A DNA stretch of 36,238 nucleotides from Acidobacteriota bacterium. GTDB taxonomy: Bacteria; Acidobacteriota; Terriglobia; Acidiferrales; UBA7541. The translations under genes and the position numbers were made by a program. The notes beneath the pieces are model-generated. The model was not told the DNA's origin and searched no databases. It worked only from the letters and a program-made list of their open reading frames with translations. Shown one piece after another: positions 1,590 through 29,224 of this stretch (its first letter is position 1; each line of letters opens with the position of its first letter). Location: the NCBI GenBank assembly GCA_003224085.1, contig QHYK01000097.1, forward strand, positions 1 to 36,238, written 5' to 3'.

Positions 1590-1599
1590 GGAAAAGAGC

Positions 1600-11035: not shown

Positions 11036-11465
11036 CCTATGAAAAAATGGAGTTGAGCGCGACTGAGATATGGGATCCAGTGAAGCGTAAATCGGTGGTC
11101 TGGAAGTTGAGGGGAATGTTCTTTTGGACAACCGTGTCCAGAGTCAACGAGCGCTGCAATATTCCGGGCTGCGGTATCGTTGTTAGTGCCTACAGAGCGA
11201 CCGTTCTGGCTTCGACCTTTGATGGACCATTCGCTCAGCAGCCCAATACTGGCTATGGTCGTTAGTTCAAATCATGCCCGTCCACTCAAAACCTCTAGAG
11301 TAGTTAGATCCAGCTAACTGAGGCCCGACGAGCCGCAGCCTGAAGCTGTCCAGGTTCGCAAGCTCGTCGAGGAGCAGCTCGAGGTGTGCTGCGCGAGGGA
11401 TTCGAGCCCTGTCCGAAGCGCTGATGGAAACGGAAGTGTGTGCGCCGCTCTTCACTCCGACTGAT

Positions 11466-11490
11466 ACGAAGGTATCGTCGATACCTTCGT
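11466..11490. promoter_or_regulatory. 25-bp palindromic operator, copy A
   Basis: ACGAAGGTATCG - T - CGATACCTTCGT: two perfect 12-bp arms around one base, 95 bp upstream of the Ohr start. The surrounding 11461-11532 aligns without gaps to 24000-24071 at about 57 of 72 positions by hand count. Symmetry, position and duplication upstream of a second cluster argue for a transcription-factor binding site. The regulator is not identifiable from the site alone; TetR-, MarR- and LysR-type proteins use sites of this size. Confidence 0.75.
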
Positions 11491-11584
11491 CCAATTGTTT
11501 TGCCTCCAGCGTCCTGGCTTAATCGCAAGTGTTTATCGCGTCCGCATTTTCAACGGAAGCATGTATATCAGAGAAGAAAACAAG

Positions 11585-12047
11585 ATGACTACTAATCAAA
11601 AAATCAACGAGGTAGCTGGTTCAACACAGGAAGTCATGAACGTGCGGTACACCGCCAAGACCCATACTTCGGGCGGGCGGCGCGGCGGCGTCTCCCACAG
11701 TGATGATGGCCGCTTAGACGTCAATTTCTCGGCTCCCGGAGTCCCCGGAACTGGCACCAATCCGGAGCAGCTGTTTGCCGCTGGTTGGTCGGCCTGTTTC
11801 ATTAGCGCGATGGGGATTGTGGCCAACAGGATGAAAGTCAAACTTCCATCCGACGTAGCCATCGATGCCGAGATAGACCTCTGCAATTCGGGCGACGTTT
11901 ACTTCCTCCGAGCACGGCTTAACGTCAGCCTGCCGGGCTTGGACCGCGAAGTCGCTCAGGCCATTGTGGACGCCCACGCACGGCGAGACATGTGCATATT
12001 CCAACGCTACACGGGGCAACATCGACGTTGCGGTCAACGTGGTGTAG
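11585..12047 (+). pseudogene. ohr: Organic hydroperoxide resistance protein (Ohr/OsmC family), frameshifted
   Basis: Ohr enzymes reduce organic hydroperoxides with two cysteines and lipoylated partners. Visible here: VMNVRYTAKTHTSGGRRGGVSHSDDGRLDV, the peroxidatic-Cys motif NPEQLFAAGWSACF, and SLPGLDREVAQAIVDA. The expected second-Cys segment (HGETCAYSNATRGNIDVAVNVV, then TAG at 12045) is intact, but in another frame: after GTG GAC GCC there is one base too many near 11970-11976. In the frame as given, translation instead runs on into the downstream hydrolase gene as one 486-codon frame. Either a real frameshift or an assembly indel. ATG 11585 gives the usual N-terminus; ATG 11561 is an alternative. 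First gene behind the palindromic operator. Confidence 0.85.
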
Positions 12048-12160
12048 GCCGTACCTGTAGCAGACCGTTTTACAAGACTGCGTCGGCTCTCGCGGGCTGT
12101 GATTGCCGCAAGAGCGTGACGAACTATGACTTCAATCTCGATGCAACGAAGGAGAAAAAT

Positions 12161-12955
12161 ATGAAACTCTCGCAAGCGTACCGAACTGCTTTGATTGTAA
12201 TTGCAGGATTTCTACTGACAGCGGTGTTTCACACGGGAGCGGTCGCCCAGACGAAATCCCCTCAAGGGATTAGAAATATTGTCATTGTTCACGGTGCGTG
12301 GGCCGATGGATCAAGCTGGTCCAAAGTGATTCCACTGCTTCAAGCCAAGGGATTTCATGTGGTCGCCGTGCAGAACCCACTGGCCTCGCTGGCTGACGAC
12401 GTTGCCGCCACCAAGCGCGCCATCGCATTGCAGGATGGCCCCGTACTGTTGGTGGGCCATTCCTATGGGGGAGTGGTTATCACGGAGGCAGGAAACGATC
12501 CAAAGGTAGTCGGGTTGGTTTATGTGGCTGCGCTCGCGCCGTCGGATGGTGAGTCCGTTGCTTCAGTCACCAAACCGTTTCCGCCGGCTCCGTTAGGCGG
12601 CGAAGTCCGGGCGGATGCTGAAGGCTTTCTGACGGTGACCCCAAAGGGAATCGCTGAAGACTTTGCGCAGGACCTGTCAGACGAAGAGAAGCAGGTGTTG
12701 ACGGCAACACAGACTCCGACAGCAGCGGCTGTATTTGGGGCCACGATCACGACCGCCGCGTGGAAGACCAAGCCATCTTGGTGCGTGATTGCCAGCAACG
12801 ATCGCGCTGTTTCTCCGGACCTTGAAAAGACCGAAGCCGCGGCAATGAAAGCAACGTCGATCACTGTTCCCTCCAGTCACGTGCCAATGCTTTCTCATCC
12901 GAAAGAAGTCGCAGATTTGATCGAGCAAGCTGCAGCGAAAGCCGGAAGCCAATGA
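12161..12955 (+). CDS. Secreted alpha/beta hydrolase (serine esterase type)
   Basis: 264 residues. A signal peptide (about 1-30, ending HTGAVAQ) precedes an alpha/beta-hydrolase domain with oxyanion segment VHGAWADGSSW (about 43-53), nucleophile elbow GHSYGG (Ser101) and a C-terminal His in SSHVPMLSHP. This resembles the small pimeloyl-ester-esterase-like or salicylate-esterase-like hydrolases often annotated only as alpha/beta hydrolase. GGAGAAAAAT precedes the ATG. The coding frame is continuous with the frameshifted Ohr gene upstream, so automated calls may fuse them; the signal peptide and ribosome binding site argue for a separate start here. Substrate unknown. Confidence 0.88.
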   Translation: MKLSQAYRTALIVIAGFLLTAVFHTGAVAQTKSPQGIRNIVIVHGAWADGSSWSKVIPLLQAKGFHVVAVQNPLASLADDVAATKRAIALQDGPVLLVGHSYGGVVITEAGNDPKVVGLVYVAALAPSDGESVASVTKPFPPAPLGGEVRADAEGFLTVTPKGIAEDFAQDLSDEEKQVLTATQTPTAAAVFGATITTAAWKTKPSWCVIASNDRAVSPDLEKTEAAAMKATSITVPSSHVPMLSHPKEVADLIEQAAAKAGSQ

Positions 12956-12977
12956 TCGGATCGCAAAAGGAGAACTC

Positions 12978-13379
12978 GTGACCGCAGTGAAATTAGAAGA
13001 TGCCCGCCGCGTTATCAGCGCTGCGGAAAAGAAAGCCAAGGAAATTGGCCAGCCAATGAATATCGCGGTGGCTGACGAAGGCGGAAATATCGTATCGCAC
13101 GTTCGTATGGATAGCGCGTGGATTGGCAGCATTGATATTTCTATGAAGAAGGCTTACACGTCGAGCGCATTTGAAATTGAAACGAAGGAATTGGCAAAGC
13201 ACGCTCAATCTGGAGGCCAATTCTTCGGAGTTCACGTTTCAAACGACGGCAAAATCATGATTTTTGCTGGCGGTATTCCGCTGAAGCGGGATGGCAAGGT
13301 CGTAGGGGCGATTGGTGTCAGCGGTGGTTCCGGCGATCAGGATCATGCCGTCGCTGCGGCCGGCGCCGGGGCGTTCTAA
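12978..13379 (+). CDS. GlcG/HbpS family protein (DUF336)
   Basis: 133 residues matching the GlcG/HbpS fold along its full length: LEDARRVISAAEKKAKEIGQPMNIAVADEGGNIVSHVRMD at the N-terminus and GGIPLKRDGKVVGAIGVSGGSGDQDHAVA at the C-terminus. Members bind heme or cobalamin-like ligands, or accompany glycolate, diol and redox enzymes; the exact role here is unknown. Start is GTG 12978 with AAAGGAG 6 nt upstream. No signal peptide is visible, so cytoplasmic. It sits among peroxide-defence and hydrolase genes and, by HbpS precedent, might have an oxidative-stress role (inference). Confidence 0.88.
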   Translation: MTAVKLEDARRVISAAEKKAKEIGQPMNIAVADEGGNIVSHVRMDSAWIGSIDISMKKAYTSSAFEIETKELAKHAQSGGQFFGVHVSNDGKIMIFAGGIPLKRDGKVVGAIGVSGGSGDQDHAVAAAGAGAF

Positions 13380-13420
13380 CACGGGCGGACGAGCAGCTTG
13401 CAATAGAGGAGGACTGATCC

Positions 13421-14443
13421 ATGTCGCATCACTATTCTGGCCCTGACTTCCGTTTCCCCCAAGGAGACGCCCGACTTGACTTCACGGATCTGTATGCCTT
13501 TCCCAAGCCGGGAGACGCTGAGAAATCCATCCTGATTATGAACGTGCATCCGTCCGCAGGCGAAAACCCTCCTGGGCCTACTACGACCGAGCCTTTCGCA
13601 CCCGAAGCATTGTACGAGCTCAAGATTGATACCGATGGTGATGTGGTTGCCGATATCGCGTACCGCGTGCGCTTCTCAGCATTCGAGCGCGGCGCACAAG
13701 CCGCGATCGTCCGCCGCATTGATGGCTTGGAAGCAAACGGTACTGGCGATTGGGGGCGCGTGATTGTCGACGGAGCGCCAGTTTCCATGGGACATGAGGT
13801 GAAGATCACAGAGGCAAGCGAGATTCGCTTCTTTGCCGGCTGGCGCAGCGACCCTTTCTTCTGCGACGTGGAAGGCGCGAAGAACAATTTGCAGTTCACG
13901 GGCGACGATTTCTTCGCTGACAAAGATGTGTGCGGCATCGTTCTTGAAGTGCCTAACTCTGCTCTGGGAACAGGAGAAGTGGGGTTGTGGGCGCGCACGC
14001 TTGTGCCAGATGATGGCGGCGGCTGGATCCAAGTCGAGCGCGGAGCCCGTCCTGCGCAAGCGGTCATACTTGTCGAAGAGAGAGATGCCTACCTCGCGGG
14101 CGAACCGGCGAACGATGAGCGTTTCCTTGCTGCCTTCGCGCACGCTCTGGAGCACACAGGTGGATATAAGCCGGCCGAGGCAAAGCGCGTGGCGGGGACA
14201 TTGCTCCCGGATGTTCTGCCTTATGACCCTACGCGCCCGGCATCTTTTCCCGATAACGGCCGGACACTCACCGACGATGCGTTCGATTCCTTTATTCGCA
14301 TCCTCACAAATGGAAGGGTTACAGAAGACAACGTAGGACCTCACAGCGATCTGTTACTCGAGTTTCCCTATGTGGGACCACCTCACCAAAGCCGCGTGAC
14401 GAAAGCGCCCCATAGGACGACCGCAACGCAAAGTCAAAAATGA
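13421..14443 (+). CDS. DUF4331 domain-containing protein
   Basis: 340 residues. The opening SHHYSGPDFRFPQGDARLDFTDLYAFPKPGD and the later FAGWRSDPFF, DFFADKDVCGIVLEVPNSALG are the hallmarks of DUF4331 proteins, whose biochemical function is unknown. No signal peptide is apparent, although many relatives are exported. GAGGAGG at 13407-13413 precedes the ATG. The gene overlaps the next open frame by 4 nt. DUF4331 genes are often found near oxidative-stress or signalling genes; nothing here shows a catalytic residue. Confidence 0.85.
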   Translation: MSHHYSGPDFRFPQGDARLDFTDLYAFPKPGDAEKSILIMNVHPSAGENPPGPTTTEPFAPEALYELKIDTDGDVVADIAYRVRFSAFERGAQAAIVRRIDGLEANGTGDWGRVIVDGAPVSMGHEVKITEASEIRFFAGWRSDPFFCDVEGAKNNLQFTGDDFFADKDVCGIVLEVPNSALGTGEVGLWARTLVPDDGGGWIQVERGARPAQAVILVEERDAYLAGEPANDERFLAAFAHALEHTGGYKPAEAKRVAGTLLPDVLPYDPTRPASFPDNGRTLTDDAFDSFIRILTNGRVTEDNVGPHSDLLLEFPYVGPPHQSRVTKAPHRTTATQSQK

Positions 14444-14469
14444 AACCGAATGATGAGCAGAGAACAAAC

Positions 14470-15375
14470 ATGAAAGATCAGAATTACCCAGCGATGAGCG
14501 AGCATGCCCACGTAGATGGGGTTTATCCCTTCCCGGCTGTGATGCAGACGCGGACAATCGAAACCAACGGTACATCCATCCATGTGCGGGTCGGCGGTCA
14601 TGGTCCAGCGGTCGTCATGCTGCACGGCTTCGGCACAACGGGCGACATGTGGGGTCATCTGGCGAGCGCACTCATCGAAGACCACATGATTGTCGCGCCC
14701 GACCTGCGTGGGTCGGGCCTCTCGTCGAAGCCTGATGGCGGCTATGACAAGAAGAATCAGGCGGCGGACATGGTCGGCGTCCTAGACGCCCTGGGTGTGC
14801 GTACGGCCGAATTGGTGACGCACGACATCGGCATCATGGTCGGCTTCGCAGTTGCCGCCACCCACCCCGAGCGCGTGAGCCGATGGGTGGCGATCGATGC
14901 GCCGCTGCCCGGCGTCGGACCCTGGGATCAGATCACACAGGATCCGGCCATGTGGCACTTTGGCTTCGGTGGTCAGGACATGGAGCGCCTGGTCGCCGGC
15001 CGCGAGCGCATCTATCTCGACCGCTTCTGGAACGAACTTTCCCGGCACCGGAAGCGGTTTGATGAAGCGAAGCGCCAGCATTATGCGGCGCTCTATGCGC
15101 AACCCGGCGCAATGCGAGCCGGCTTTGCCCAGTTCCTGGCATTCAGCCAGGATGCGACCGACAACAGGACGTTCCTTGCGCAGGGCAAGCTTCAGATGCC
15201 GGTCTTGGCCTTGGGTGGCGAAGTTACATTCGGCCCTAGGATGGGCGCGGTGATGCGGTGTGTTGCCGATAATGTCGAAGATGTGATCATCCCGGATTGC
15301 GGGCACTGGATCACGGAAGAACAGCCGGCCGCGACGACAAAACTTGTCGTCGACTTCCTGCATCGCCGTTCGTGA
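14470..15375 (+). CDS. Alpha/beta hydrolase, Asp-nucleophile (epoxide hydrolase/haloacetate dehalogenase-like)
   Basis: Cytoplasmic alpha/beta hydrolase of about 301 residues. Oxyanion segment LHGFGTTGDMW (about 51-61), DLRGSGLSSKP, nucleophile elbow THDIG with Asp119 in place of Ser, a cap domain, and C-terminal catalytic His in DCGHWITEEQP. Asp nucleophiles are characteristic of epoxide hydrolases and haloalkane or haloacetate dehalogenases. The start at 14470 (MKDQNY) is preferred over ATG 14440, because the same leader plus MKDQNY occurs before the next gene, where the purine-rich GAGGAG just upstream acts as ribosome binding site. ATG 14440, which overlaps the DUF4331 stop, remains possible. 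Substrate not determinable. Confidence 0.88.
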   Translation: MKDQNYPAMSEHAHVDGVYPFPAVMQTRTIETNGTSIHVRVGGHGPAVVMLHGFGTTGDMWGHLASALIEDHMIVAPDLRGSGLSSKPDGGYDKKNQAADMVGVLDALGVRTAELVTHDIGIMVGFAVAATHPERVSRWVAIDAPLPGVGPWDQITQDPAMWHFGFGGQDMERLVAGRERIYLDRFWNELSRHRKRFDEAKRQHYAALYAQPGAMRAGFAQFLAFSQDATDNRTFLAQGKLQMPVLALGGEVTFGPRMGAVMRCVADNVEDVIIPDCGHWITEEQPAATTKLVVDFLHRRS

Positions 15376-15423
15376 GTTAGCTAGCGTTACGCCGTGAAAC
15401 CAGATGATGAGGAGACAACAGCC

Positions 15424-16269
15424 ATGAAAGATCAGAATTACGCAGCAACAACAAAGACCGCTGAGATACGTCTGGCCAAGCGCTCGCCCGAGTATTGGAG
15501 AGTTACGTTTGACCACCCGCCGCTCAACATCTTCGGTCCGGAGATGCTTCCGCAAGTAAACGAGATCATCACGGCAATCGAAACTGACGAGCAGGTTAAG
15601 GTGGTGGTCTTTGACAGTGCAGTCGAAGGATTCTTTCTGATTCACTTAGATTTTCTTGCAAGACTTGACGATTTGGCGCATCTCCCTCCTGGACCTACAG
15701 GCTTGCATCCATGGCCCGAGATGCTGGTGCGCCTGAGTCGTGCACCTGTCGTATCGATAGCGTCGATTCGCGGGCGAGCGACCGGTATGGGAAGTGAGCT
15801 TGCGCTTGCCTGCGACATGCGTTTTGCCAGTCGCGAGAAAGCCATCTTGTCGCAGTTTGAGGTTGGCGCCGGTCTGGTGCCTGGCGGTGGCCCCATGGCG
15901 CGACTGTCGCGCCTCATGGGAAGAGGACGCGCTCTGGAAGTAGTTTTAAGCGCAAACGACGTCCCAGGTGACTTGGCAGAGCGCTACGGCTATGTGAATC
16001 GGTCGTTGCCGGATGCCGACCTTGAGGGATTTGTGGATGCGCTTGCCAACCGCATCGTCACCTTCGACAAACAGACAATCGTGGATACGAAGCGCCTGGT
16101 CAACGTTGCCAGCTTGCCGCCTGATATCGAAATCGAATCCGGGTGGAACGCCTGCGTTGCTTCGATGGCACGACCGGCCACGCAGCAGAGAATCAAAACT
16201 CTGATAGAGCGAGGCTTTTGCAAACCCGGTGATGCAGAAAATCGCTTGGGAGACTTCGTGGGACGCTGA
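15424..16269 (+). CDS. Enoyl-CoA hydratase/isomerase (crotonase) family protein
   Basis: 281 residues of crotonase fold: VTFDHPPLNIFGPEML near the N-terminus, VKVVVFDSAVEGFFLIHLD (first oxyanion strand), and SIRGRATGMGSELALACDMRFAS around residues 114-136, the CoA-binding and oxyanion motif, then FEVGAGLVPGGGPMARLSRLMGR. It is closer to the divergent crotonases found in accessory clusters than to housekeeping FadB-type enzymes, so the CoA substrate is uncertain. GAGGAG lies 10 nt upstream of ATG 15424; the in-frame GTG 15394 is less likely. The leader and first six codons (MKDQNY) copy those of the preceding hydrolase gene. Confidence 0.87.
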   Translation: MKDQNYAATTKTAEIRLAKRSPEYWRVTFDHPPLNIFGPEMLPQVNEIITAIETDEQVKVVVFDSAVEGFFLIHLDFLARLDDLAHLPPGPTGLHPWPEMLVRLSRAPVVSIASIRGRATGMGSELALACDMRFASREKAILSQFEVGAGLVPGGGPMARLSRLMGRGRALEVVLSANDVPGDLAERYGYVNRSLPDADLEGFVDALANRIVTFDKQTIVDTKRLVNVASLPPDIEIESGWNACVASMARPATQQRIKTLIERGFCKPGDAENRLGDFVGR

Positions 16270-16354
16270 GCATCCATAAGGGCGCAGCCTTCTATGGGAC
16301 CCTGTAAAAAATCAGAATGTGGACGATTAAACCGAAGCCGCTGGAGCGAGATCA

Positions 16355-16867
16355 ATGAATACAGATTCGAAAGACAAAATCTTAAGCGGGGATGGCTCTC
16401 GTCTTGCCACTGCCGAGCAGCGGTTAAGACAACTCGGCATCAAGCTTCCAGCGCCGCCTGAGCCGTTCGGCATATACGCGGAAGCGGTGCAGACGGGCAA
16501 CCTGCTCTTCCTCACCGGAATGCTTCCCACTGTAGGCCGCGAAGCGAAATTCATCGGGCGCCTCGGCGCGGAACTCGACGTGCAAACGGGACGCAAGGCC
16601 GCTTACCTAGCAGCGCTCAACGCCCTCGCTGTCGCGCGGGAGCATTTGGGATCGCTCGACAAATTGACGCGGATCGTCCGGCTCGGCGTCGCTGTGGCCA
16701 CTTCGGGAGATGTCCGCGAACAGCCAAAGGTGGCTGATGGCGCTTCAGAGTTGCTGCAGGACGTTTTCGGAAAAGACAAAAATCCCAGCCGACTGGTGTA
16801 CGGCGTAGCCAGCCTTCCGCTCGGCGTGCCGGTCGAGCTGGAGTTGATTTTTGAGGTATCCGCGTAA
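16355..16867 (+). CDS. RidA/YjgF/UK114 family protein
   Basis: 170 residues. The Rid domain is clear: AVQTGNLLFLTGMLPTVG, then GRKAAYLAALNALAVAREHLGSLDKLTRIVRL, and SRLVYGVASLPLGVPVELELIFEV. Arg146 and Glu161 align with the Arg and Glu that enamine/imine deaminating RidA enzymes need, so hydrolysis of reactive enamines or imines is plausible. It carries a ~25-residue N-terminal extension relative to classic RidA. Its stop overlaps the next start (TAATG), pairing it translationally with the nitronate monooxygenase-like flavoenzyme, whose products could include imine- or carbonyl-type reactive intermediates (inference). Confidence 0.88.
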   Translation: MNTDSKDKILSGDGSRLATAEQRLRQLGIKLPAPPEPFGIYAEAVQTGNLLFLTGMLPTVGREAKFIGRLGAELDVQTGRKAAYLAALNALAVAREHLGSLDKLTRIVRLGVAVATSGDVREQPKVADGASELLQDVFGKDKNPSRLVYGVASLPLGVPVELELIFEVSA

Positions 16868-18021
16868 TGCCGCCCCGCTGGAATGAGAACCGGCTCACAG
16901 CGAAACTCGGGATCGACTATCCCGTCATTCAAGGTCCGCTGGGCGGATTGTCATCACAAAAATTGACGGCCGCGGTCTCCAACTTTGGCGGACTCGGATC
17001 GTTTGGTGCGCACGGCTTGGCTCCGGAGGCGATCAAGGACGTGATCGGAGAGATTCGCTCCCTTACTTCGAAACCGTTCGCAATGAACTTGTGGGTCTCG
17101 ATGGAAGACGAAGGCGCCCGAACATCGGACGAAAACGCCTTCAATAGGAGCCTTGCCCCGCTTGCCGTCCATCTCGCCGCCTTGGGGGCGCCTCGTCCGA
17201 CATACAAACCGTATTCGCCGATCCGATTTGAAGATCAGGCTCGCGTGTTGCTGGACGCGAACGTCCCGGTATTCAGCTTCATCGTAGGAATCCCGCCAAG
17301 AGGAATTTTAGAGGAGTGCCGGACGAAAGGTATCGTCACGATTGGCGCGGCGACAACACCCGATGAGGCAGCAGCACTTCAGGAGGCAGGCGTGGATGTG
17401 ATCGTCGCTTCCGGGTTCGAAGCCGGAGGACATCGCGGTTCATTCCTCCGGTCCGCAGAGGATTCGCTTACGGGCACGCTCTCGCTCGTCCCTCAGATCG
17501 TCGACATCGTCGATGTGCCGGTGATCGCCGCCGGTGGCATCGCAGATGCGCGCGGCGTAATCGCCGCCATGGCTCTTGGCGCAGAGGCCGTGCAAATGGG
17601 AACGGTATTCCTGGCGTGCGAGGAGTCCGGCGCCAGCCTCCTTCATCGCCAGGCTTTACGAGGGAAAAAAGCCGGGCACACCGCTCTGACAAAGGGCTTC
17701 ACCGGAAGGCTCGCGCGGGGAATCCACAACCGCTTGCTGGAGGAGTTGAACCAAGAGGGAACGGCGATTCTACCTTATCCGTTGCAACGAAGACTCGTCA
17801 GAAACCTGTCGATAGCAGCCGAGGCGGCGGGTCGAGCGGATCTCTTGCCTCTATGGGCGGGGCAAAGCGCCAATCTTTCGGCTTGCAGCGACACATCGGC
17901 TTTCTTGCGCTCATTGGTCGAGGAAGTTTCCGAAATCGCAGGACCCATCATTCAGTGGAGCGCAGCCCGCCGTGAGGTGGTCGTCCGGCCCACGGCGCAG
18001 GGACTTCTAACACGGGGGTAA
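16867..18021 (+). CDS. Nitronate monooxygenase-like FMN flavoprotein
   Basis: 384 residues of the 2-nitropropane dioxygenase/nitronate monooxygenase TIM-barrel family. Motifs: YPVIQGPLGGLSSQKLTAAVSNFGGLGSFG (FMN loop), VFSFIVGIPP, VDVIVASGFEAGGHRG with the conserved His of the active-site loop, DVPVIAAGGIADARGVIAAMALGAEAVQMGT (phosphate binding), and TKGFTGRLARGI. Family members oxidise nitronates or reduce quinones and related enoyl substrates with FMN; which applies here cannot be read off. Start coupled to the RidA-like gene by TAATG; cytoplasmic. Confidence 0.9.
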   Translation: MPPRWNENRLTAKLGIDYPVIQGPLGGLSSQKLTAAVSNFGGLGSFGAHGLAPEAIKDVIGEIRSLTSKPFAMNLWVSMEDEGARTSDENAFNRSLAPLAVHLAALGAPRPTYKPYSPIRFEDQARVLLDANVPVFSFIVGIPPRGILEECRTKGIVTIGAATTPDEAAALQEAGVDVIVASGFEAGGHRGSFLRSAEDSLTGTLSLVPQIVDIVDVPVIAAGGIADARGVIAAMALGAEAVQMGTVFLACEESGASLLHRQALRGKKAGHTALTKGFTGRLARGIHNRLLEELNQEGTAILPYPLQRRLVRNLSIAAEAAGRADLLPLWAGQSANLSACSDTSAFLRSLVEEVSEIAGPIIQWSAARREVVVRPTAQGLLTRG

Positions 18022-18024
18022 AGT

Positions 18025-19011
18025 ATGCACCCTTTCTATTCGTCCCGTTGGGCCCGATTCTTGCAGGTTTCTCGTATGGTGCTGGTGGTTTCTATGATGC
18101 TCGCAATATTTCAACTGCCGGCCCACGCCCAGGGAAAGGAACGTCCCGTGAAACACACGACTTTTTATCGCACCATACAGGTAGATGGACTCTCCATCTT
18201 TTACAGAGAGGTCGGGCCAAAAGACGCGCCAACGCTTTTGCTGTTGCACGGACTCCCCTCTTCCTCGCGGATGTTCGAGCCTCTCTTCACCCAGCTTTCC
18301 GACCGCTATCACCTTATCGCGCCCGACTACCCCGGCTTCGGACACAGTGACTGGCCAGACCCGAAAAAATTCGCGTACACGTTCGATCACATCGCCGAAA
18401 CCATGAATCACTTCACCGAAGCTCTTGGGCTCTCGCGCTACACGCTTTACATGCAGGATTACGGGGGCCCCGTCGGCTTTCGCATGGCCTTGGCTTATCC
18501 GGACCGAATCGAGGCGCTCATTGTTCAGAACGCCGTTGCGCACAACGATGGTCTGGGAGCGGTTTGGAAAACACGCCGGGCCTTTTGGGCAGATCGCGCC
18601 GTTAACGAGAGTGCGCTACGCGCAAACCTCCTGTCACTCGCGACTACGCGGACGCGCCATGTAGGGATCGATCCTAACGTGGAGCGCTATGCCCCGGATC
18701 TCTGGACCGATGAATTTGCCTTTCTGAGCCAGCCTCGCCAGGTGGATATTCAAAGCGACCTCTTCTACGACTACCGCACGAACGTCGACTCCTACCCCAA
18801 GTGGCAGACATGGATGCGCGAAAGGCAGCCGCGGCTGCTGGTGATTTGGGGTAAGTATGACCCCTCATTTGACATTTCGGAGCCGGAAGCCTATCGCCGG
18901 GATGTGCCGAACGCTGAGGTTCACGTTCTCGACGCAGGACACTTCGCTCTTGATACCAACGCAGATGAAATTGCGGCGCTTATAGGTCAGTTCATGAAGA
19001 GGCAGAAATGA
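18025..19011 (+). CDS. Secreted alpha/beta hydrolase, Asp-nucleophile (haloalkane dehalogenase-like)
   Basis: 328 residues. An N-terminal signal sequence (VLVVSMMLAIFQLPAHAQG, about 19-37) precedes a hydrolase domain with LLHGLPSSSRMF, DYPGFGHSDWPDP, nucleophile elbow MQDYGGPVG (Asp145), acid candidate in GKYDPSF and His in LDAGHFALDTNADEIA. This is the haloalkane dehalogenase/epoxide hydrolase branch. GGGGGT precedes ATG 18025, 3 nt after the preceding stop. Fragments of two close paralogues remain in the window: a C-terminus at 19540-19656 and an N-terminus at 25894-25989. The paralogue N-terminal match begins just after the signal peptide. Dehalogenation is a family possibility, not shown. 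Confidence 0.88.
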   Translation: MHPFYSSRWARFLQVSRMVLVVSMMLAIFQLPAHAQGKERPVKHTTFYRTIQVDGLSIFYREVGPKDAPTLLLLHGLPSSSRMFEPLFTQLSDRYHLIAPDYPGFGHSDWPDPKKFAYTFDHIAETMNHFTEALGLSRYTLYMQDYGGPVGFRMALAYPDRIEALIVQNAVAHNDGLGAVWKTRRAFWADRAVNESALRANLLSLATTRTRHVGIDPNVERYAPDLWTDEFAFLSQPRQVDIQSDLFYDYRTNVDSYPKWQTWMRERQPRLLVIWGKYDPSFDISEPEAYRRDVPNAEVHVLDAGHFALDTNADEIAALIGQFMKRQK

Positions 19012-19067
19012 GTACTATCATTCGCGAAGCATTGGCCGGTTCGAGGTGGTCAAGGGGGCAAGATTTT

Positions 19068-19496
19068 ATGGGTAAAAGACTCGCACTACTGGCAATTCGC
19101 CTGATGGTGTCCATGAACCTTCTGTATGCCGCCATCTTTCTCAAGTTTGCAGCGGTGCCAGATTCGGTGACCCTGTTCACGCAGATGTCGCAAGCGGTCC
19201 ACGGCTGGGTATCTCAGCCGGTATTCCGGTTAGGGTCAGGGGCGTTTGAGACGGTGGTGGCGGTTCTGCTCCTGATCCCGAAAACAGCCAGATTGGGAGC
19301 CGGATTGATTGTTGTGTGGATGACTGCCGTAATTCTCAGTCACATTTTCGTGTTGGGTTATGGCTGGTTCTTTGTCGATGCTCTCATGGTCATGCTGCTG
19401 GCTGTCATTTATCTCTTGCTGACACGCAGGTGGTCCCATTGGGGCAAACCGGAAAATGTGGGGATGACGGCTGCCTTACAAGCGCACAAAAAATAG
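19068..19496 (+). CDS. DoxX-like small integral membrane protein
   Basis: About 142 residues with four hydrophobic segments, the DoxX/DoxD-like pattern: LALLAIRLMVSMNLLYAAIF, VFRLGSGAFETVVAVLLLIP, GAGLIVVWMTAVILSHIFVL and DALMVMLLAVIYLLL. DoxX relatives act in quinone-linked or thiol-oxidant stress membrane complexes. AAGGGGG (19052-19058) 9 nt before ATG 19068 and the immediate start of the first membrane helix favour this start; ATG 19008, overlapping the hydrolase stop by 4 nt, would add 20 residues. Confidence 0.8.
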   Translation: MGKRLALLAIRLMVSMNLLYAAIFLKFAAVPDSVTLFTQMSQAVHGWVSQPVFRLGSGAFETVVAVLLLIPKTARLGAGLIVVWMTAVILSHIFVLGYGWFFVDALMVMLLAVIYLLLTRRWSHWGKPENVGMTAALQAHKK

Positions 19497-19539
19497 TCGG
19501 GCGAACAGATGGAAGCGGAGCCACAACGTTCTGATATGA

Positions 19540-19656
19540 GTGCCCTCAGCGCAGGTTCACATTGTCGATGGCGGCCATTTCTCCCTCGACACGGCAGCCT
19601 ACGAGATCGCCACGCGAGTGCGTGGGTTTATGGATATGCCGAACGAATCAGTCTAA
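19540..19656 (+). pseudogene. Relic: C-terminal end of a third dehalogenase-like alpha/beta hydrolase
   Basis: The frame reads VPSAQVHIVDGGHFSLDT then AAYEIATRVRGFM and ends with TAA at 19654. This aligns residue by residue with the end of the intact hydrolase at 18025 (VPNAEVHVLDAGHFALDTNADEIAALIGQFM), including the catalytic His. An in-frame TGA precedes it and no start is available. The rest of the gene is gone, so an ancestral hydrolase-DoxX-hydrolase array lost most of its last member. Confidence 0.8.
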
Positions 19657-19668
19657 GGAGAAGAAATC

Positions 19669-20151
19669 ATGGCAACTACAACGATGACAACCCGCCCCCC
19701 TTTGCCTCCGTTTACACATGAAAGCGCGATTCAAAAGGTGCGTCTCGCCGAAGATGGCTGGAACACTCGCGACCCGGCGAAAGTAGCTCTGGCCTACGCG
19801 ATCGATTCAAGATGGAGGAACCGATCGGAGTTTATCAACGGACGAAACGAAATCGTTGCATTCCTCACTCGCAAGTGGGTCAAGGAGTTGGACTACAGGC
19901 TCATCAAAGAACTCTGGGCGTTCGGCGACAACCGGATCGCGGTACGCTTCGCTTACGAGTGGCACGACGACTCGGGTCACTGGTATCGCTCTTATGGAAA
20001 TGAGAACTGGGAGTTCGATGGCGACGGGCTCATGAAATTGCGATTTGCGTCAATCAACGACCTTCCCATTTTGGAATCAGATCGCAAATACCACTGGCTG
20101 CTCGGGCGCCGCCCCGAAGATCACCCAGGATTGAGTGATCTAGGCCTCTAG
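19669..20151 (+). CDS. DUF1348/NTF2-like (SnoaL-fold) protein
   Basis: 160 residues, full length for the DUF1348 branch of the nuclear-transport-factor-2-like superfamily: [36 protein letters not shown], then [48 protein letters not shown]. The fold forms a cone-shaped pocket used by many small-molecule isomerases and hydrolases; no specific activity is known for this branch. AAGGAG lies 9 nt upstream of the ATG. Last gene of the plus-strand cluster, converging on the signalling operon. Confidence 0.88.
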
Positions 20152-20172
20152 TTCCCTCACGCCGGCGGGATA

Positions 20173-20191
20173 TCACCATCAAGGATGGTGA
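20173..20191. terminator. Short perfect hairpin between convergent genes
   Basis: TCACCATC-AAG-GATGGTGA: 8-bp stem, 3-nt loop, between the DUF1348 stop and the stop of the minus-strand regulator. No T-tract on either side, so termination is only suggested by position. Confidence 0.3.
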
Positions 20192-20195
20192 AGTA

Positions 20196-20867
20196 TCAGC
20201 TTTTCGGCGCAGATGCGAGGCCGAGTCTCGCAGCCATTTTCACCAAATCGGCGAGCGAGTCGGCCTTCATTTTCTGCATCGCCTGGCCTCGATGTGCCTT
20301 GACCGTGATCTCGCTAATGCCGAGCTCCCCACCGACTTGTTTATTTAACAAACCGGAGGCCACCAACGCCATGACTTCCCGTTCGCGACGCGTGAGTGAC
20401 GCGTAGCAGTCGCGAAGCCCCCGCATCTCCGCCTCATGCGACAGAGCAGTCTGACTGCGGTCGATGGCGGTACGGATCGCGCTCAACAGCACATCATCAC
20501 TGAATGGTTTCGTCAAGAACTCTACGGCGCCCGCCTTCATGGCCTGAACAGTCATAGGCACGTCGCCCTGACCTGTGATGAATATGATCGGCATGTCAAT
20601 CCGTTCGACAGCGACGCGCTTCTGCAGATCGAGACCGTTAAGGCCTGGAAGAGAAACGTCCAATACGAGGCAGCTCGGAGCAAGCTTGCGTGGATTGGCA
20701 AGGAATTCCTGTGCGGAGGCGAATGTCTCAGGCTGCCAACCCTCGGACTGAATCAGCAACTCCAGCGATTCGCGGACCGAGATGTCATCGTCAACAACGA
20801 ACACTATGGGTGTGGCGTGCAACTTGGGTGATGCCTTTGATTGGCTAGGTCCGCTCGTTGAACTCAT
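20196..20867 (-). CDS. FixJ/NarL-type response regulator (REC-LuxR HTH)
   Basis: 223 residues. Receiver domain about 20-140: acidic pocket DDD at 26-28, phospho-acceptor Asp70 (LVLDVSLPG), Thr98 (FITGQGD) and Lys120 (FLTKPF). The DNA-binding C-terminus is LuxR-type: LTRREREVMALVASGLLNKQVGGELGISEITVKAHRGQAMQKM. FixJ-like by the short linker and motif pattern. Last gene of the operon, 25 nt after the single-domain receiver. It is the only obvious DNA-binding output of this pathway, and so a candidate regulator of the flanking clusters (inference; its sites need not be the 25-bp palindrome). Confidence 0.93.
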   Translation of the reverse strand: MSSTSGPSQSKASPKLHATPIVFVVDDDISVRESLELLIQSEGWQPETFASAQEFLANPRKLAPSCLVLDVSLPGLNGLDLQKRVAVERIDMPIIFITGQGDVPMTVQAMKAGAVEFLTKPFSDDVLLSAIRTAIDRSQTALSHEAEMRGLRDCYASLTRREREVMALVASGLLNKQVGGELGISEITVKAHRGQAMQKMKADSLADLVKMAARLGLASAPKS

Positions 20868-20892
20868 GTTGATCTCTCAGCTCGGTCGAATC

Positions 20893-21267
20893 TCAGCTCC
20901 TCCGAAGCGCGGCGTTGAGCGCCTCAACCAGGGCCCGCTCGCTGAAAGGTTTGAACAGACACTCCACGGCGCCTTGTTCGAGCACTCGCGGGCGGACGGC
21001 GTCATCTCTGTAAGCGGTGATGAAGACGATCGGAATCTCTTGCCGGCGAAGCTTCAATTCCCGTTGGAGATCGTGTCCCGTCATGCCAGGCATGGCGATG
21101 TCCAGGATCAGACAATTAGTCTGGGCGACGTAATCAGACGTGAGGAACTCTTCCGCCGATGAGAATGCATGGGCCGCAAAGCCCAACTCCCACAGCAAGT
21201 CGGGTAGCGACTCGCGGACGGACTCGTCGTCATCAACCACAGATACTAGTGAGCGTCCGGTCAGCAC
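20893..21267 (-). CDS. Single-domain response regulator (CheY/FixJ-receiver type)
   Basis: 124 residues, receiver only: DDD at 12-14, phospho-acceptor Asp56 (CLILDIAMPGMTG), Thr84 (VFITAY) and Lys106 (CLFKPF). No output domain, so it may relay or sink phosphate from the kinase to the FixJ-type protein. Start is GTG at 21267 with GGGGGA 3 nt upstream; it overlaps the kinase stop by 7 nt, which suggests translational coupling. Confidence 0.92.
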   Translation of the reverse strand: MLTGRSLVSVVDDDESVRESLPDLLWELGFAAHAFSSAEEFLTSDYVAQTNCLILDIAMPGMTGHDLQRELKLRRQEIPIVFITAYRDDAVRPRVLEQGAVECLFKPFSERALVEALNAALRRS

Positions 21268-23066
21268 GGATCCCCCATAGCACGCTCTGAGTCCTCCGCG
21301 GCAGGCATTCGAATGGTGCCAAGACTGCGGGCTCCCGTCACACCCTCTGGACCGCGAGGAATAGAAAATGAAAACGTGGCTCCGGGGCCATCATTCGGCG
21401 CTGCCCATAGACGGCCATGATGATTCTCGATAATGGAGCGACTGACTGATAGTCCCATTCCCATACTCTCGTTCTTAGTTGTATAGAATGCTTCGAAGAG
21501 TCTCTCTGCAGCTTGAGGGTCGAAACCGACTCCCGCATCTTGCACGGTGAGTCGCACACGATCCCCTTCGTCTCGTTCGGTACTGATCAGCAACTGCCTC
21601 GGACGATCGTCGACGGCACTCAATGCTTCTGAGGCGTTCCGGAGCAGGTTGAGAATGACCTGCTGAATCTGCACTCGATCGCCCTTCACAACCGGGAGGT
21701 CACTGGCAAGTTCAGTCCGCAGAATCACCCGGTTTCTCTGAAGTTCACTCAACGACAAGGCAATCACCTCTCGCGTAGCCTCATTCAGGTCCACCGATTC
21801 AATCGTGGCCTCTTTCTTACTGAAAAGCGCGCGCAATCGCGTGATCACCTCAGAGGCACGGTTGCCATCGCGAATAGTGCGCCGCACGGTTTCGCGCGCA
21901 CCGTCGACGTTTGGAGGATCCGCGGCCAGCATCCGCAGACAGGTGCAGGCGTTGGTGATAATGCCCGACAGCGGCTGGCTGACTTCGTGGGCGATCGACG
22001 CCGCCAACGCTCCAAGGCTCGTGACCCTTGCCACGTGCGCGAGTTCCGAACTTACCTTGGCGAGCGCCTCTTCCGAAAGCCGGTGTTCCGTCGCGTCTTG
22101 AATCGCGCCGACATGTTCCAGCCGCCCGTCTCGGTCGCGGATCCCGTAAGACTTCGTACGCAAGTACTTGACCCGGCCGTCTGGCATCCGTAGCCGGATT
22201 GCGTAATCGTGGTCGTTAATGTTCCTTCGTGCCAAATCCATCTTCTCAGACAACAAGGGGATGTCTTCCGGGTGGACTCGAGCAACAATCTGCTCAAGCA
22301 TCACAGGCGCATCGTAGTCAAACTCGAAGATGCGATAGAGCTCCTCCGAAAACGTGATTTCGTCCGTGTCCAGTCGCCAGGAAAAGCTGCCGGTTAAGCT
22401 GAGGCGTTGGCCTTCGGCTAGAAACGCTTCACTGCGCTTGAGTGCTTCCTCCGCGCGCCTGCGTTCGGCGACTTCCATTCTCAGCCCTTCGTTGGCTGCA
22501 GCAAGTTCTGCGGTCCGTTGCCCGACGCGTTGATCGAGTTCGTCGGCAACGCGCTTCTGTTCGGTCAACAGTCGTCCCTGCTGTAGTCCGATCAACGCCT
22601 GGTTAGCCGCTATCCCCAGAAGAAGTGCCTCGGTATCCCGCGGGAAATCTGCTCGACGAGACCCCGCTACGATTACCCCGATTTCACGCTGAACCCCGAG
22701 AGGCCAGGACGCGAGTGAAACCTCTTCGTCTCCAATGTGACTGCGTTCCTGGAGATAACGTTTTTGTGGGTCATCTCCCAACCAGCGATTGAGGAACGTA
22801 CAGAGCTCTCGCGGTCGGAACAGCTGTTCTTGCGATTGAGGGACCCTGACCGTCTCGGAGGGCGCCGCGTCGACTGGGTTTGTCAAGCTCACATACACGA
22901 AGTCCAGATCGAGCAAGCGAAGGAGTGAGTCGAGCAAGGTATGAACGATGTCATAGGGTTTGCTGCCACTCCACATGGCAGGAAGAGCGAGGAGGCTGAC
23001 CAGATCATTAATGCAACGTTGAAGGCGCTTGATTTCCTCCGCGGGATGTTCGAGTGACACTTCCAT
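21261..23066 (-). CDS. PAS-domain sensor histidine kinase (soluble, FixL/TodS-like layout)
   Basis: About 601 residues when started at ATG 23066, 1 nt after the MEDS gene's stop; the longer open frame to 23282 overlaps that gene and is unlikely. No membrane segments are apparent, so it is probably cytoplasmic. Order: GAF-like region (about 25-165), a coiled coil (LTEQKRVADELDQRVGQRTAELAAANEGLRMEVAERRRAEEAL), a PAS_3 domain (FSWRLDTDEITFSEELYRIF ... VHPEDIPLLSEKMDLA ... YLRTKSYGIRD), then HisKA with phospho-acceptor His in ASIAHEVSQPLSGI. The ATPase domain has its N box (LNLLRNASEAL), G1 (DAGVGFD) and G2 (MGMGLSVS). Phosphate would pass to the two receivers downstream. Confidence 0.9.
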   Translation of the reverse strand: MEVSLEHPAEEIKRLQRCINDLVSLLALPAMWSGSKPYDIVHTLLDSLLRLLDLDFVYVSLTNPVDAAPSETVRVPQSQEQLFRPRELCTFLNRWLGDDPQKRYLQERSHIGDEEVSLASWPLGVQREIGVIVAGSRRADFPRDTEALLLGIAANQALIGLQQGRLLTEQKRVADELDQRVGQRTAELAAANEGLRMEVAERRRAEEALKRSEAFLAEGQRLSLTGSFSWRLDTDEITFSEELYRIFEFDYDAPVMLEQIVARVHPEDIPLLSEKMDLARRNINDHDYAIRLRMPDGRVKYLRTKSYGIRDRDGRLEHVGAIQDATEHRLSEEALAKVSSELAHVARVTSLGALAASIAHEVSQPLSGIITNACTCLRMLAADPPNVDGARETVRRTIRDGNRASEVITRLRALFSKKEATIESVDLNEATREVIALSLSELQRNRVILRTELASDLPVVKGDRVQIQQVILNLLRNASEALSAVDDRPRQLLISTERDEGDRVRLTVQDAGVGFDPQAAERLFEAFYTTKNESMGMGLSVSRSIIENHHGRLWAAPNDGPGATFSFSIPRGPEGVTGARSLGTIRMPAAEDSERAMGDPC

Positions 23067-23067
23067 G

Positions 23068-23721
23068 TTAGACCGCCATCGAGCGTGCCGTAGTCTGCCT
23101 AGCTCTCCGTTCGCGAAGTTCACGCAGAAACTCCTCCGGTGGTACAAAGAATGGATTCTGCTGGAGGATGCCGCCGATGATGACCATCGGATGCGTCCGC
23201 ATAATGTCAATGACAGTATCTCCCCCAAATTTCCCAAGATGGTACGTGCAGATGACGGCGTCGTCGTGGCGGCGCCATACATCGTTTACACGCGATTCGA
23301 ACTCGACGAGAGTGTCCTGCGACCGACCTTCAGCTGCCCAGTCCATGCGGCATACAATCCGGCTCAGTGGAAAACCTCCCTTGGCGTTGCCGCTAGCCAA
23401 TTGCTCGAACACTTCTAGCATTCGGTCCGGATTGAAACGGCCTTCTCGAAGGTATACTTCGGTGCTGGTCCGAACCTCGAGTTGCCCATTCTGCTCGGCA
23501 GCCGCAGGGTCGATCCCCGCCGCAGTCAACCTTTGCAGATGGTCGCGCTGTTGATCCGGACTTACGACGTGAACGGCCTTGTCGCCGCACTCGAGCCCAT
23601 CCTTAATGAAGGGAAGTAGCACGCGATATTCTTCGTCGTCGCTGTTGAAGAACGCGCAGACATGACGTGCTTCGCCGAGCTGGGAGCCGGCAAAGCGAAT
23701 GGAGGCCGCACTCTTCTTCAT
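23068..23721 (-). CDS. MEDS-domain (DcmR-type sensory) protein
   Basis: 217 residues. The body matches the MEDS domain (methanogen/methylotroph DcmR sensory domain): HVCAFFNSDDEEYRVLLPFIKDGLECGDKAVHVVSPDQQRDHLQRLTAAGID, then YLREGRFNPDRML, a conserved RIVCRMDWAAEG, and VICTYHLGKFGGDTVIDIMRTHPMVIIGG near the end. MEDS domains were defined in DcmR, the dichloromethane-responsive repressor, and also occur beside histidine kinases. There is no DNA-binding domain here, so it likely senses a ligand and acts through the kinase. GGGAGGAA before ATG 23721 fixes the start; the open frame upstream to 23883 lacks one. First gene of the signalling operon. Confidence 0.85.
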   Translation of the reverse strand: MKKSAASIRFAGSQLGEARHVCAFFNSDDEEYRVLLPFIKDGLECGDKAVHVVSPDQQRDHLQRLTAAGIDPAAAEQNGQLEVRTSTEVYLREGRFNPDRMLEVFEQLASGNAKGGFPLSRIVCRMDWAAEGRSQDTLVEFESRVNDVWRRHDDAVICTYHLGKFGGDTVIDIMRTHPMVIIGGILQQNPFFVPPEEFLRELRERRARQTTARSMAV

Positions 23722-24098
23722 GCTGTATTCCTCCCATGAAGAGTGTCCTGCAAGGCGCGTCACTAGGCAACCGTGATTTACGGCCGGACCTGGTCTATTG
23801 ATGGTCTTGCCGCAGCCAGGATGAGGGTGGCGACCTCTTACCTTGAGGCACTCCATGACACGAGGGTGCGCCACCCTGCGCATCGCTGTCCATAATACTT
23901 TGGTATCGGTTCTCCCGCTGGATCGACAACAACACGATAAACATCAAAGGGGAAAAAGCTTAAAGAGGAAAGACGGACAGAGGGTCTCACTCCCGCCGGC
24001 TGATACGAAGGTATGGTCGATACCATCGTCTAATTGTTTCTCCTCTACGGATCTGGTGTGATCGCACCTGTGCAGGCCATCTTTAAAGAGGAGTTTAC
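23722..24098. other. Divergent intergenic region
   Basis: About 375 bp between the minus-strand signalling operon and the plus-strand SDR/ADH cluster. It should hold promoters for both. The only structured element I can support is the palindromic operator copy B at 24005-24029. Confidence 0.5.
24005..24029. promoter_or_regulatory. 25-bp palindromic operator, copy B
   Basis: ACGAAGGTATGG - T - CGATACCATCGT, with two arm mismatches in symmetry, 70 bp upstream of the SDR start. It matches copy A (11466-11490) at 23 of 25 positions, and the similarity extends to 24071 including a shared AATTGTTT block. This makes the two plus-strand clusters members of the same predicted regulon. Confidence 0.72.
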
Positions 24099-24765
24099 AT
24101 GCCGGACCACAACACCGCAATCATTACAGGAGCATCGCGCGGAATCGGAGCCGGTTTAGTCGGGGCCTTCCTGAAACAGGGTTATAACGTCGTTGCGACG
24201 TCTCGCAATGTAAGTCAACAGTTGACTGCCTCGACCGCCCTGGTTCTCATCGATGGCGATATTGGGGAGCCGGAGACTGCTGCCAAGGTCGTCGAAGCAG
24301 CAATAAAAAACTTCGGAAGTATCGATGTTCTGGTGAATAACGCCGGAATCTTTTTCACGAAGCCTTTCACGGAATTTTCTACCGCGGACTTCAACGCCTT
24401 GGTCTCAACGAACCTGCTGGGATTTTTCTACATCACTCAGCTTACTGTGAAACAGATGCTGAAGCAGAAATCAGGGAGCGTCGTAAGCATCACTGCGGCG
24501 CTTGCCGATCAGCCGATCCTTGGCATAAATGGCTCGGATTGAGTATGCAAAACAGGGTATCCGCTTCAACGCTGTAGCCCCTGGCGTGGTGGATACGCCA
24601 ATGCACAAGGATAGTCCCAAGGAGTTCCTTAAACAGTTGCAGCCAATGGGGGGAATCGCAGACATACAGGACGTTGTGGACGCTGTCCTCTACCTGGCAC
24701 AGGCAGGTCAAGTAACAGGAGAGGTCCTCCACGTGGACGGCGGCGTTCACGCTGGCCGTTGGTAG
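24099..24765 (+). pseudogene. Short-chain dehydrogenase/reductase with internal deletion
   Basis: Rossmann-fold SDR. The first part (24099-24542) has the cofactor motif TGASRGIG (10-17), NNAGI and the SVVSITAALADQPI segment with the catalytic-Ser strand, then hits a stop. The second part (from about 24526 in another frame) resumes with ARIEYAKQGIRFNAVAPGVVDTPMH and the C-terminal VTGEVLHVDGGVHAGRW. About 15-17 codons that should join them, including the YxxxK region or its equivalent, are missing and the frame is shifted. Joined, the protein would be the usual ~240 residues. As read it cannot make an active enzyme. AAAGAGGAG precedes ATG 24099. First gene behind operator copy B. Confidence 0.82.
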
Positions 24766-24827
24766 CTGTACGAAAAAAGGAGCTGTTTGGAATCGATATC
24801 TCTAAAGTTTTCGCAAAAGGAGGATTT

Positions 24828-25862: not shown

Positions 25863-25893
25863 AGTTGCCCAAGACGAAGAAAAGGAGAGTCCC

Positions 25894-25989
25894 ATCGAAC
25901 ACGCGACTTTTTGTCGCACGACGCAGATCGATGGGCTCTCCGTCTTTTACGGAGAGGCCTGCCCGAAAGACGCGCCGACGCTCCCGTGT
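25894..25989 (+). pseudogene. Relic: N-terminal fragment of a dehalogenase-like alpha/beta hydrolase
   Basis: The frame reads IEHATFCRTTQIDGLSVFYG then EACPKDAPTLPC, aligning with residues of the intact hydrolase at 18025 just after its signal peptide (VKHTTFYRTIQVDGLSIFYREVGPKDAPTLLLLHG). It has AAAAGGAG upstream, but ATC where the start codon should be. The match ends just before the HG oxyanion motif, where unrelated sequence leading into the transposase relic begins. Confidence 0.8.
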
Positions 25990-26127
25990 GGTCAAAAAAC
26001 TCGAACGGCTTGAAATGGCGTGGCTTAGGATTTTGCACGGGCTCCCTTTTCGAATGGGGTTCTCCGACCCAGAAACAGCGCCTACAATCTTGCCTTCACG
26101 AAGTTATAGATTACCGGGGAATCCAAA

Positions 26128-26830: not shown

Positions 26831-29095
<2,265 letters not shown>

Positions 29096-29224
29096 TTAGT
29101 CAAAATTGAATCAAAAGAACTGTGGCGCATTGCCAGCCCATCTTGGCTTTCTACTCGGACAATCACTGGTGGCCGCGGTCGGTGACGCGCGCGCCGTTCA
29201 TCCGGTTTTTACCGCCTTCGAAAC

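Follow-up and report, generated by a model that had tools for sequence, protein, structure and literature searches.

Gene content of the locus and the repeated segment

The window analysed here is the whole stretch of 36,238 nucleotides, a contig of an Acidobacteriota genome, and it holds two gene clusters that are each preceded by a copy of the same short segment. The first-pass annotation described both clusters as rich in redox and hydrolase genes, which agrees with the Pfam matches. Cluster A starts after copy A with an OsmC-like gene (11585-12047, plus strand; Pfam), whose reading frame breaks close to the end in this assembly; the end coordinate given here is in the second frame. The cluster continues on the plus strand (12161-20151) with genes for an alpha/beta hydrolase, an HbpS-like protein, a DUF4331 protein, another alpha/beta hydrolase, an enoyl-CoA hydratase-like protein, a RidA-like protein, a nitronate monooxygenase, a dehalogenase-like alpha/beta hydrolase, a small membrane protein and a DUF1348 protein. 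The small membrane protein gave no Pfam match and is DoxX-like by eye. The 5' ends of an alpha/beta hydrolase gene and of the enoyl-CoA hydratase-like gene (14441-14492 and 15395-15446) are 87% identical along 52 bp and thus represent a locally duplicated gene start.

Cluster B starts after copy B with a short-chain dehydrogenase/reductase (SDR) gene (24099-24765, plus strand), which falls into two frames and lacks a segment that is present in the intact gene of a relative, and is likely to be a pseudogene. It is followed by a gene for a zinc-dependent alcohol dehydrogenase family protein (24759-25862, plus strand; Pfam). The last elements of the cluster are remnants, one of a hydrolase gene and others integrase-like. 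In the interval 25859-26825, a remnant resembling the hydrolase gene at 18025-19011 (78% over 116 nt, 18121-18236 against 25867-25982) precedes ORFs with an integrase-like appearance by eye, two of which were given to Pfam and had no match. The broken SDR gene and the terminal remnants suggest that cluster B may be decaying. Since the first genes of both clusters are frame-disrupted, the window's copy as a whole may be decaying too, an assembly error being a possible alternative explanation of the OsmC frame break. Beyond cluster B lie katG and a Fur-family gene on the minus strand (26831-29650), and a scan with the profile described below gave no site before either of them.

The repeated segment spans 11461-11532 (copy A) and 24000-24071 (copy B). 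The gapless alignment of these positions reported earlier was reproduced, with exactly 57 of 72 bases identical, and outside about 11452-11540 the similarity drops to background. The 25-bp core is a perfect inverted repeat in copy A (11466-11490) and differs from it by two mismatches in copy B (24005-24029). From the end of the core it is 95 bp to the ATG at 11585 and 70 bp to the ATG at 24099, as had been described. Allowing up to three mismatches, the 25-mer was found at these two places only in the window, compared with none in 100 dinucleotide shuffles. The whole-genome scan proposed with the original observation gave the same two sites in the 6.8-Mb assembly (97% complete, 159 contigs).

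The statement that no other pair of promoters in the window is alike also held. Ungapped 72-base comparisons on both strands of the entire window, with a cut-off of at least 48 matches, revealed three other diagonals. These were 1856/1994 (64 matches, inside the ORF at 1573-3417), 18158/25904 (59 matches, the hydrolase gene against its remnant) and 14439/15393 (52 matches, the starts of two genes).

A two-component operon between the two copies

The first-pass annotation saw no obvious regulator gene adjacent to either copy. Between the two, however, lies a complete two-component operon, at 20196-23721 on the minus strand. It encodes a response regulator with a receiver domain and a GerE/LuxR helix-turn-helix (20196-20867), a stand-alone receiver domain (20893-21267), a sensor histidine kinase with GAF, PAS_3, HisKA and HATPase_c domains (21261-23066) and a MEDS-domain protein (23068-23721; PF14417, E 5.5e-45), all by Pfam. 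The MEDS gene is divergent from copy B. The start of the kinase gene at 23066 is inferred within a listed ORF of 21261-23282, and the start of the MEDS gene at 23721 is deduced from a ribosome-binding-site-like stretch within a listed ORF of 23068-23883. The four genes nearly abut and probably form one operon.

The response regulator is of the NarL/FixJ type, with an N-terminal Response_reg match (E 1e-26) and a C-terminal GerE match (E 1.3e-20) in Pfam, and the sequence of its recognition helix is TVKAHRG. The nearest solved structure is StyR (1yio, E 2.4e-54, over 195 residues). We propose this protein as the DNA-binding activator, and judging from its sequence and its association with the sites across genomes it is the most likely regulator to read both copies.

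Promoter architecture of the shared element

A profile was built from 99 full-flank sites out of the 102 distinct sites found in this and other genomes. Many of the sites come from related genomes, and the 84 sites used for scanning weigh as 30.6 independent ones. The conserved columns read GATAC-SAAR-GTATC, GNC, RATAC-CWTC-GTCC and AATTG, followed by a weaker T-rich stretch, T43-G44 and T48-R-A50-T51. The element thus consists of two AC-N4-GT boxes 17 bp apart, of which the inner one adjoins a -35 sequence, TTGTTT, followed by a 17-bp spacer and an extended -10; the spacer and the extended -10 TG follow from reading TTGTTT as the -35 and profile positions 46-51 as the -10.

In copy A, all on the plus strand, the distal box (11463-11476) is GATAC-GAAG-GTATC and the proximal box (11480-11493), which adjoins the -35, is GATAC-CTTC-GTCCA. 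The core promoter spans 11495-11523, with TTGTTT at 11495-11500, the 17-bp spacer, the TG of the extended -10 at 11515-11516 and the -10 CTTAAT at 11518-11523. Copy B, on the same strand, has GATAC-GAAG-GTATG as the distal box (24002-24015), GATAC-CATC-GTCTA as the proximal box (24019-24032) and a core promoter at 24034-24062, with TTGTTT at 24034-24039, the 17-bp spacer, TG at 24054-24055 and the -10 TGTGAT at 24057-24062. Compared with the E. coli consensus, TTGTTT matches at 3 of 6 bases and the -10 sequences at 4 of 6. The centre of the inner box would be located approximately 43 bp before the transcription start, which is predicted to lie some 7 bp past the -10. In its geometry, the element corresponds to a class II activator-dependent sigma-70 promoter, with a box next to the -35, a 17-bp spacer and a -10 in the columns of the 99 sites.

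The spacing of the boxes was examined at 175 flanked sites identified by the inner box. Of these, 104 have the distal box at a distance of 17 bp, 29 at 18 bp and 2 at some other distance; the other 40 have none that is recognisable. The preference for 17 bp is inflated by a distal-box profile trained at that distance; the 18-bp class is unbiased. The score threshold for the inner box plus -10 was set at 18; shuffled sequence, 4.07 Mb with both strands counted, scored at most 13.0. A second class of sites has the 18-bp spacing and often CCAATAG or CCAATGG instead of CCAATTG (L153, L159, L162, L164, L033, L037, L048 and L075), and both classes co-exist in some genomes.

These results modify the original description of the core as a 25-bp palindrome. 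The inverted repeat is real, but the functional unit appears larger, comprising two boxes locked to the -35 and -10 at a spacing of 17 or 18 bp. A single rigid palindrome was abandoned as a model, all 12 arm pairs being present in only 2 of the 104 sites with 17-bp spacing. In nine hand-picked sites of the 29 with 18-bp spacing, the centre comprises 2 bases and 8-11 of the 12 arm pairs are kept, so that two inverted 12-mers separated by 1-2 bp would be a fair description too.

A relaxed search of the own genome with the inner box and promoter returned the same two sites with no mismatches and two poor matches with three mismatches, while the reversed control gave one match. Of the poor matches, the one in contig C84 was dropped, as it lies inside an ORF and has neither a -10 nor a distal box; the one in C137 fits the relaxed inner-box pattern with three mismatches. 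Since both sites in this genome flank the two-component operon, they were counted as support for a local regulon.

Distribution of the motif among genomes

With up to three mismatches, the 25-mer matched 14 of 151 genomes (the own genome and relatives) at 21 places. Fourteen of these places, spread over nine genomes, have CCAATTG, CTAATTG or TCAATTG after the palindrome, and in most of them a CTGG..TAATCGC-like block stands about 17 bp further on. The seven places without CAATTG after the palindrome were set aside (L004, L007, L009, L011, L006, G017:C259 and G034:C158); the first four have one coding context in common. With up to two mismatches, 24 of 399 genomes of the class were matched, compared with none for a reversed control pattern. 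The spread is patchy, the carriers being a small, scattered part of the class. The motif also accompanies related clusters in other genomes, so that the regulon prediction withstood the comparison with relatives as well.

Within the GTDB-based collection scanned, the motif is nearly restricted to acidobacterial records. An exact scan with GTATNGNCNATACYWTNGTCYAATTG gave 55 stretches, a number that differs from a genome count since there are several records per genome and records of the own genome may be missing. Acidobacterial titles account for 53 of the stretches, and the other two are titled Betaproteobacteria and Nevskia soli (loci L061 and L080). The Betaproteobacteria title of a motif-bearing bin is probably wrong, a mislabelled record. 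Among the open-access papers searched, none was recognised as dealing with this motif or regulon.

Association with one clade of response regulators

The motif, with its promoter-like geometry, is linked to one clade of response regulators. Seven candidates were scored per genome, and a regulator was regarded as close at an identity of at least 63% to the one in the window. Close regulators were present in 23 of 399 genomes, and the motif was found in 14 of these 23 as compared to 10 of the 376 others (Fisher, 5.4e-14). In those 14 genomes, 30 of the 46 sites listed lie within 20 kb of a close regulator, where uniformly placed sites would give 0.57; such sites occur in 12 of the 14 genomes, and they cluster and are hence not independent. 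In a tree with 56 rows, the 31 rows with the recognition motif KAHRG and the four with KTHRG form one clade (99/99), and the KIHRG, KIQRG, KVQRS, KLHRG, QVHRG and KFHRG rows lie outside it. A kinase homologue was found in 20 and a MEDS homologue in nine of the 29 regions with a KAHRG or KTHRG regulator (the window included). Kinases (41-52% identity) are encoded in paralogue regions as well, one of which also has a MEDS protein.

Nine genomes have a close regulator and no strict motif, seven of the KAHRG type and two of the KTHRG type (G284 and G288). In six of the seven KAHRG regions (7-20 kb), diverged sites above the threshold were found, as compared to none in 16 regions around paralogous regulators (KIHRG, KIQRG, KLHRG and QVHRG; Fisher near 7e-5, calculated by hand). 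The training set of the scanning profile excluded those seven genomes but included their relatives. The single site of the G270 region is barely above the threshold (18.3), and the remaining region, on a 7-kb contig of G003, gave no site. All four KTHRG regions contain a variant site. Beside these regulators (G264, G284, G288 and G250; L184-L187) most sites read CCCATAG or CTCATAG. The pairing of KTHRG regulators with variant sites suggests co-divergence of regulator and operator.

Ten of the 24 motif genomes lack a regulator with at least 63% identity, and five of these ten are at least 94% complete. Among genomes with weaker homologues only (about 50-61% identity, E up to 1e-60), the motif was found in 4 of 37 compared with 6 of 362 (p 0.009), the 23 genomes with a close regulator being kept in the denominator. 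Thus, weaker homologues also go with the motif, and at the genome level the close clade is not its exclusive partner.

Genes downstream of the sites

A downstream gene could be called at 147 of 180 sites; the other 33 had none or were cut by the end of the locus. Genes were called as the longest ORF, and families were named from one representative each or from similarity to a gene in the window. The most frequent family is cytochrome P460, with 26 downstream proteins, 19 of them encoded by the first gene, followed by enoyl-CoA hydratase-like proteins (17, of which 16 first), SDR proteins (16), alpha/beta hydrolases (14), DUF4331 proteins (12), epoxide hydrolases with an EHN domain (11), aldo/keto reductases (8) and a family without a Pfam match (8). 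Smaller families comprise glyoxalases, zinc alcohol dehydrogenases or quinone reductases, MOSC-reductases, sigma-70-type factors and carbonic anhydrases, as well as DJ-1/PfpI, metallo-beta-lactamase fold, AhpC-TSA and FUSC proteins.

Some of the operons behind motif sites combine a histidine methyltransferase (PF10017) with an FGE/DinB protein and correspond to egtD and egtB by domain make-up. Such egtB-egtD-like operons follow motif sites at L020:2039-4443 and L159:15716-18168. The pair presumably represents ergothioneine synthesis, which would tie that pathway to this promoter class. Judging from gene content, the theme common to the targets would be the handling of electrophiles, peroxides and related reactive compounds.

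Comparison with known two-component systems

StyR-like regulators are reported to recognise ATAAAC-N4-GTTTAT, an operator that, like the StyR recognition residues, is common to the TodS/TodT, TmoT and TutB group (PMC5874301). As described in PMC2442086, phosphorylated StyR activates from a site at about -40 together with a second, cooperative upstream site. The boxes described here resemble this operator of StyS/StyR, which governs styrene catabolism in Pseudomonas fluorescens, in the AC-N4-GT core with its 4-base spacer, and their layout resembles the StyR promoter as given in PMC2442086, with an inner box near -40 and an upstream site. StyR is also the best solved-structure match, although StyR and FixJ are on long branches of the tree, where their placement is unsure.

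In contrast, the half-site is GATAC instead of ATAAAC, and GATAC-N4-GTATC and RATAC-N4-GTCCA share only AC-N4-GT with the published operator. Two of the three DNA-contact residues that PMC5874301 reports for StyR (Lys175, Val176 and His179, numbered by eye from our alignment) differ, V to A and H to G, as seen from the helices TVKVHRH in StyR and TVKAHRG here. Operator half-sites and recognition helix differ likewise from those that the same paper gives for the TodS/TodT, TmoT and TutB group. Unlike the double-kinase hybrid StyS, the sensor is one HisKA/HATPase_c kinase with a separate receiver and a separate MEDS protein. The targets are not a styrene or toluene operon, and no aromatic dioxygenase was found among the target families annotated here. 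By operator, recognition residues and sensor layout, the predicted system is outside the StyR/TodT group, and by analogy it appears to work like members of that group.

The regulator also has the REC-GerE organisation of FixL/FixJ systems, and FixJ is the top named NCBIfam model. However, its score of 205.9 bits is below the cut-off of 255 for the FixJ equivalog (NF006900), and no nitrogen-fixation genes were found among the 20 window ORFs given to Pfam. The PF14417 domain is common to the MEDS proteins DcmR and EtnR2, and MEDS proteins are described as sensing hydrocarbon derivatives (PMC8784404). Unlike DcmR and EtnR2, the MEDS domain forms a separate small protein beside the kinase here, and many related regions showed no homologue of it.

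Proposed mechanism and alternative explanations

We interpret the shared segment as the activator-dependent promoter of a local two-component regulon for the detoxification of electrophiles or oxidants, controlled by a FixJ/StyR-type response regulator, with a probability of roughly 0.8. The regulon predicted from the first reading of the sequence is strongly supported; what changes is the location of the common regulator, most likely encoded next to the copies. As a comparative-genomic object the regulon is real, whereas physical binding, activation in preference to repression, phosphorylation and the nature of the signal are inferred.

In the proposed mechanism, a signal would reach the histidine kinase, perhaps via the MEDS protein, and phosphate would be passed to the response regulator (20196-20867), either directly or through the stand-alone receiver. 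Dimers of the phosphorylated regulator would then bind the two AC-N4-GT boxes 17 bp apart. Because the inner box touches the -35, at a distance of approximately 43 bp from the expected start, the regulator is predicted to be a class II activator that recruits RNA polymerase. Copy A would switch on the cluster from the OsmC-like gene to the DUF1348 gene, and copy B the SDR-alcohol dehydrogenase cluster, with a possible additional influence of copy B on the divergent regulator operon. Judging from the targets, the response would serve to detoxify reactive electrophiles or oxidants.

It is unlikely that the motif is read by another regulator encoded elsewhere, such as a second FixJ-type response regulator, a TetR-type repressor or the Fur/PerR-like protein at 29225-29650, with the nearby two-component operon as a co-travelling target. 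A regulator gene that often adjoins a site would fit a target equally, the Fur-family gene is 5 kb from copy B, and the ten motif genomes without a close regulator and the association with weaker homologues are in line with such a reader. Against this, the clade and the sites co-occur across genomes, the regions of the 16 paralogues are devoid of sites, and the StyR-like helix fits an AC-N4-GT box.

That the response regulator binds the element as a repressor is also improbable. The -35 and -10 agree only in part with the E. coli consensus, as is common in activated promoters. Phosphorylated StyR does repress from other positions, according to PMC2442086, but the proximal box ends at the -35, leaves the -10 uncovered and resembles the StyR activator site near -40 described there.

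The original note left open whether the segment was duplicated with the clusters or kept by selection, and duplication is not needed, the same promoter being found before many unrelated genes elsewhere. A segment merely copied along with a duplicated cluster, with no regulatory role of its own, is a very unlikely explanation. The window does contain other duplications, namely the hydrolase stretch and the gene starts described above, but the sequence around the two copies is unrelated beyond the promoter. The same promoter is present in 24 of 399 genomes of the class and has a fixed geometry in front of many unrelated gene families, and the conserved -35/-10 spacing across these families already contradicts this explanation. 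The end of a mobile element or a dispersed palindromic repeat, which the inverted repeat and the integrase-like remnants seen by eye at 26282-26825 might suggest, can practically be dismissed, since the genome has two copies, only 28 of 155 sites are located within called ORFs compared with 119.9 expected from random placement (all fetched loci of at least 5 kb), the orientation to the -35/-10 is fixed one way, and of the 87 aligned columns none outside the promoter is conserved.

Acidobacteriota are abundant in soil, and little appears to be known about their gene regulation. Candidate regulator, operator, promoter geometry and target list together form one testable package, and the regulon would place poorly characterised genes, such as those for cytochrome P460, DUF4331 and, in this window, DUF1348, under common control. 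Tentatively, and with more doubt than confidence, we suggest a stress regulon of Acidobacteriota whose duplicated response regulators diverged together with their operators, with 17-bp sites carrying CCAATTG, 18-bp sites often carrying CCAATAG or CCAATGG, and CCCATAG beside KTHRG regulators, perhaps one paralogue for each. The kinase, with a MEDS partner in some genomes, might respond to a small organic electrophile, or to a precursor of one, and induce cytochrome P460, epoxide hydrolases, DJ-1, glyoxalase and ergothioneine synthesis. The regulator-operator pairs would also provide a natural series for studying how FixJ-type recognition changes. One of the places set aside above, L025:9978 (G034:C158), has a well-fitting pair of boxes without CCAATTG and -10, and is either a degraded site or a site of another kind.
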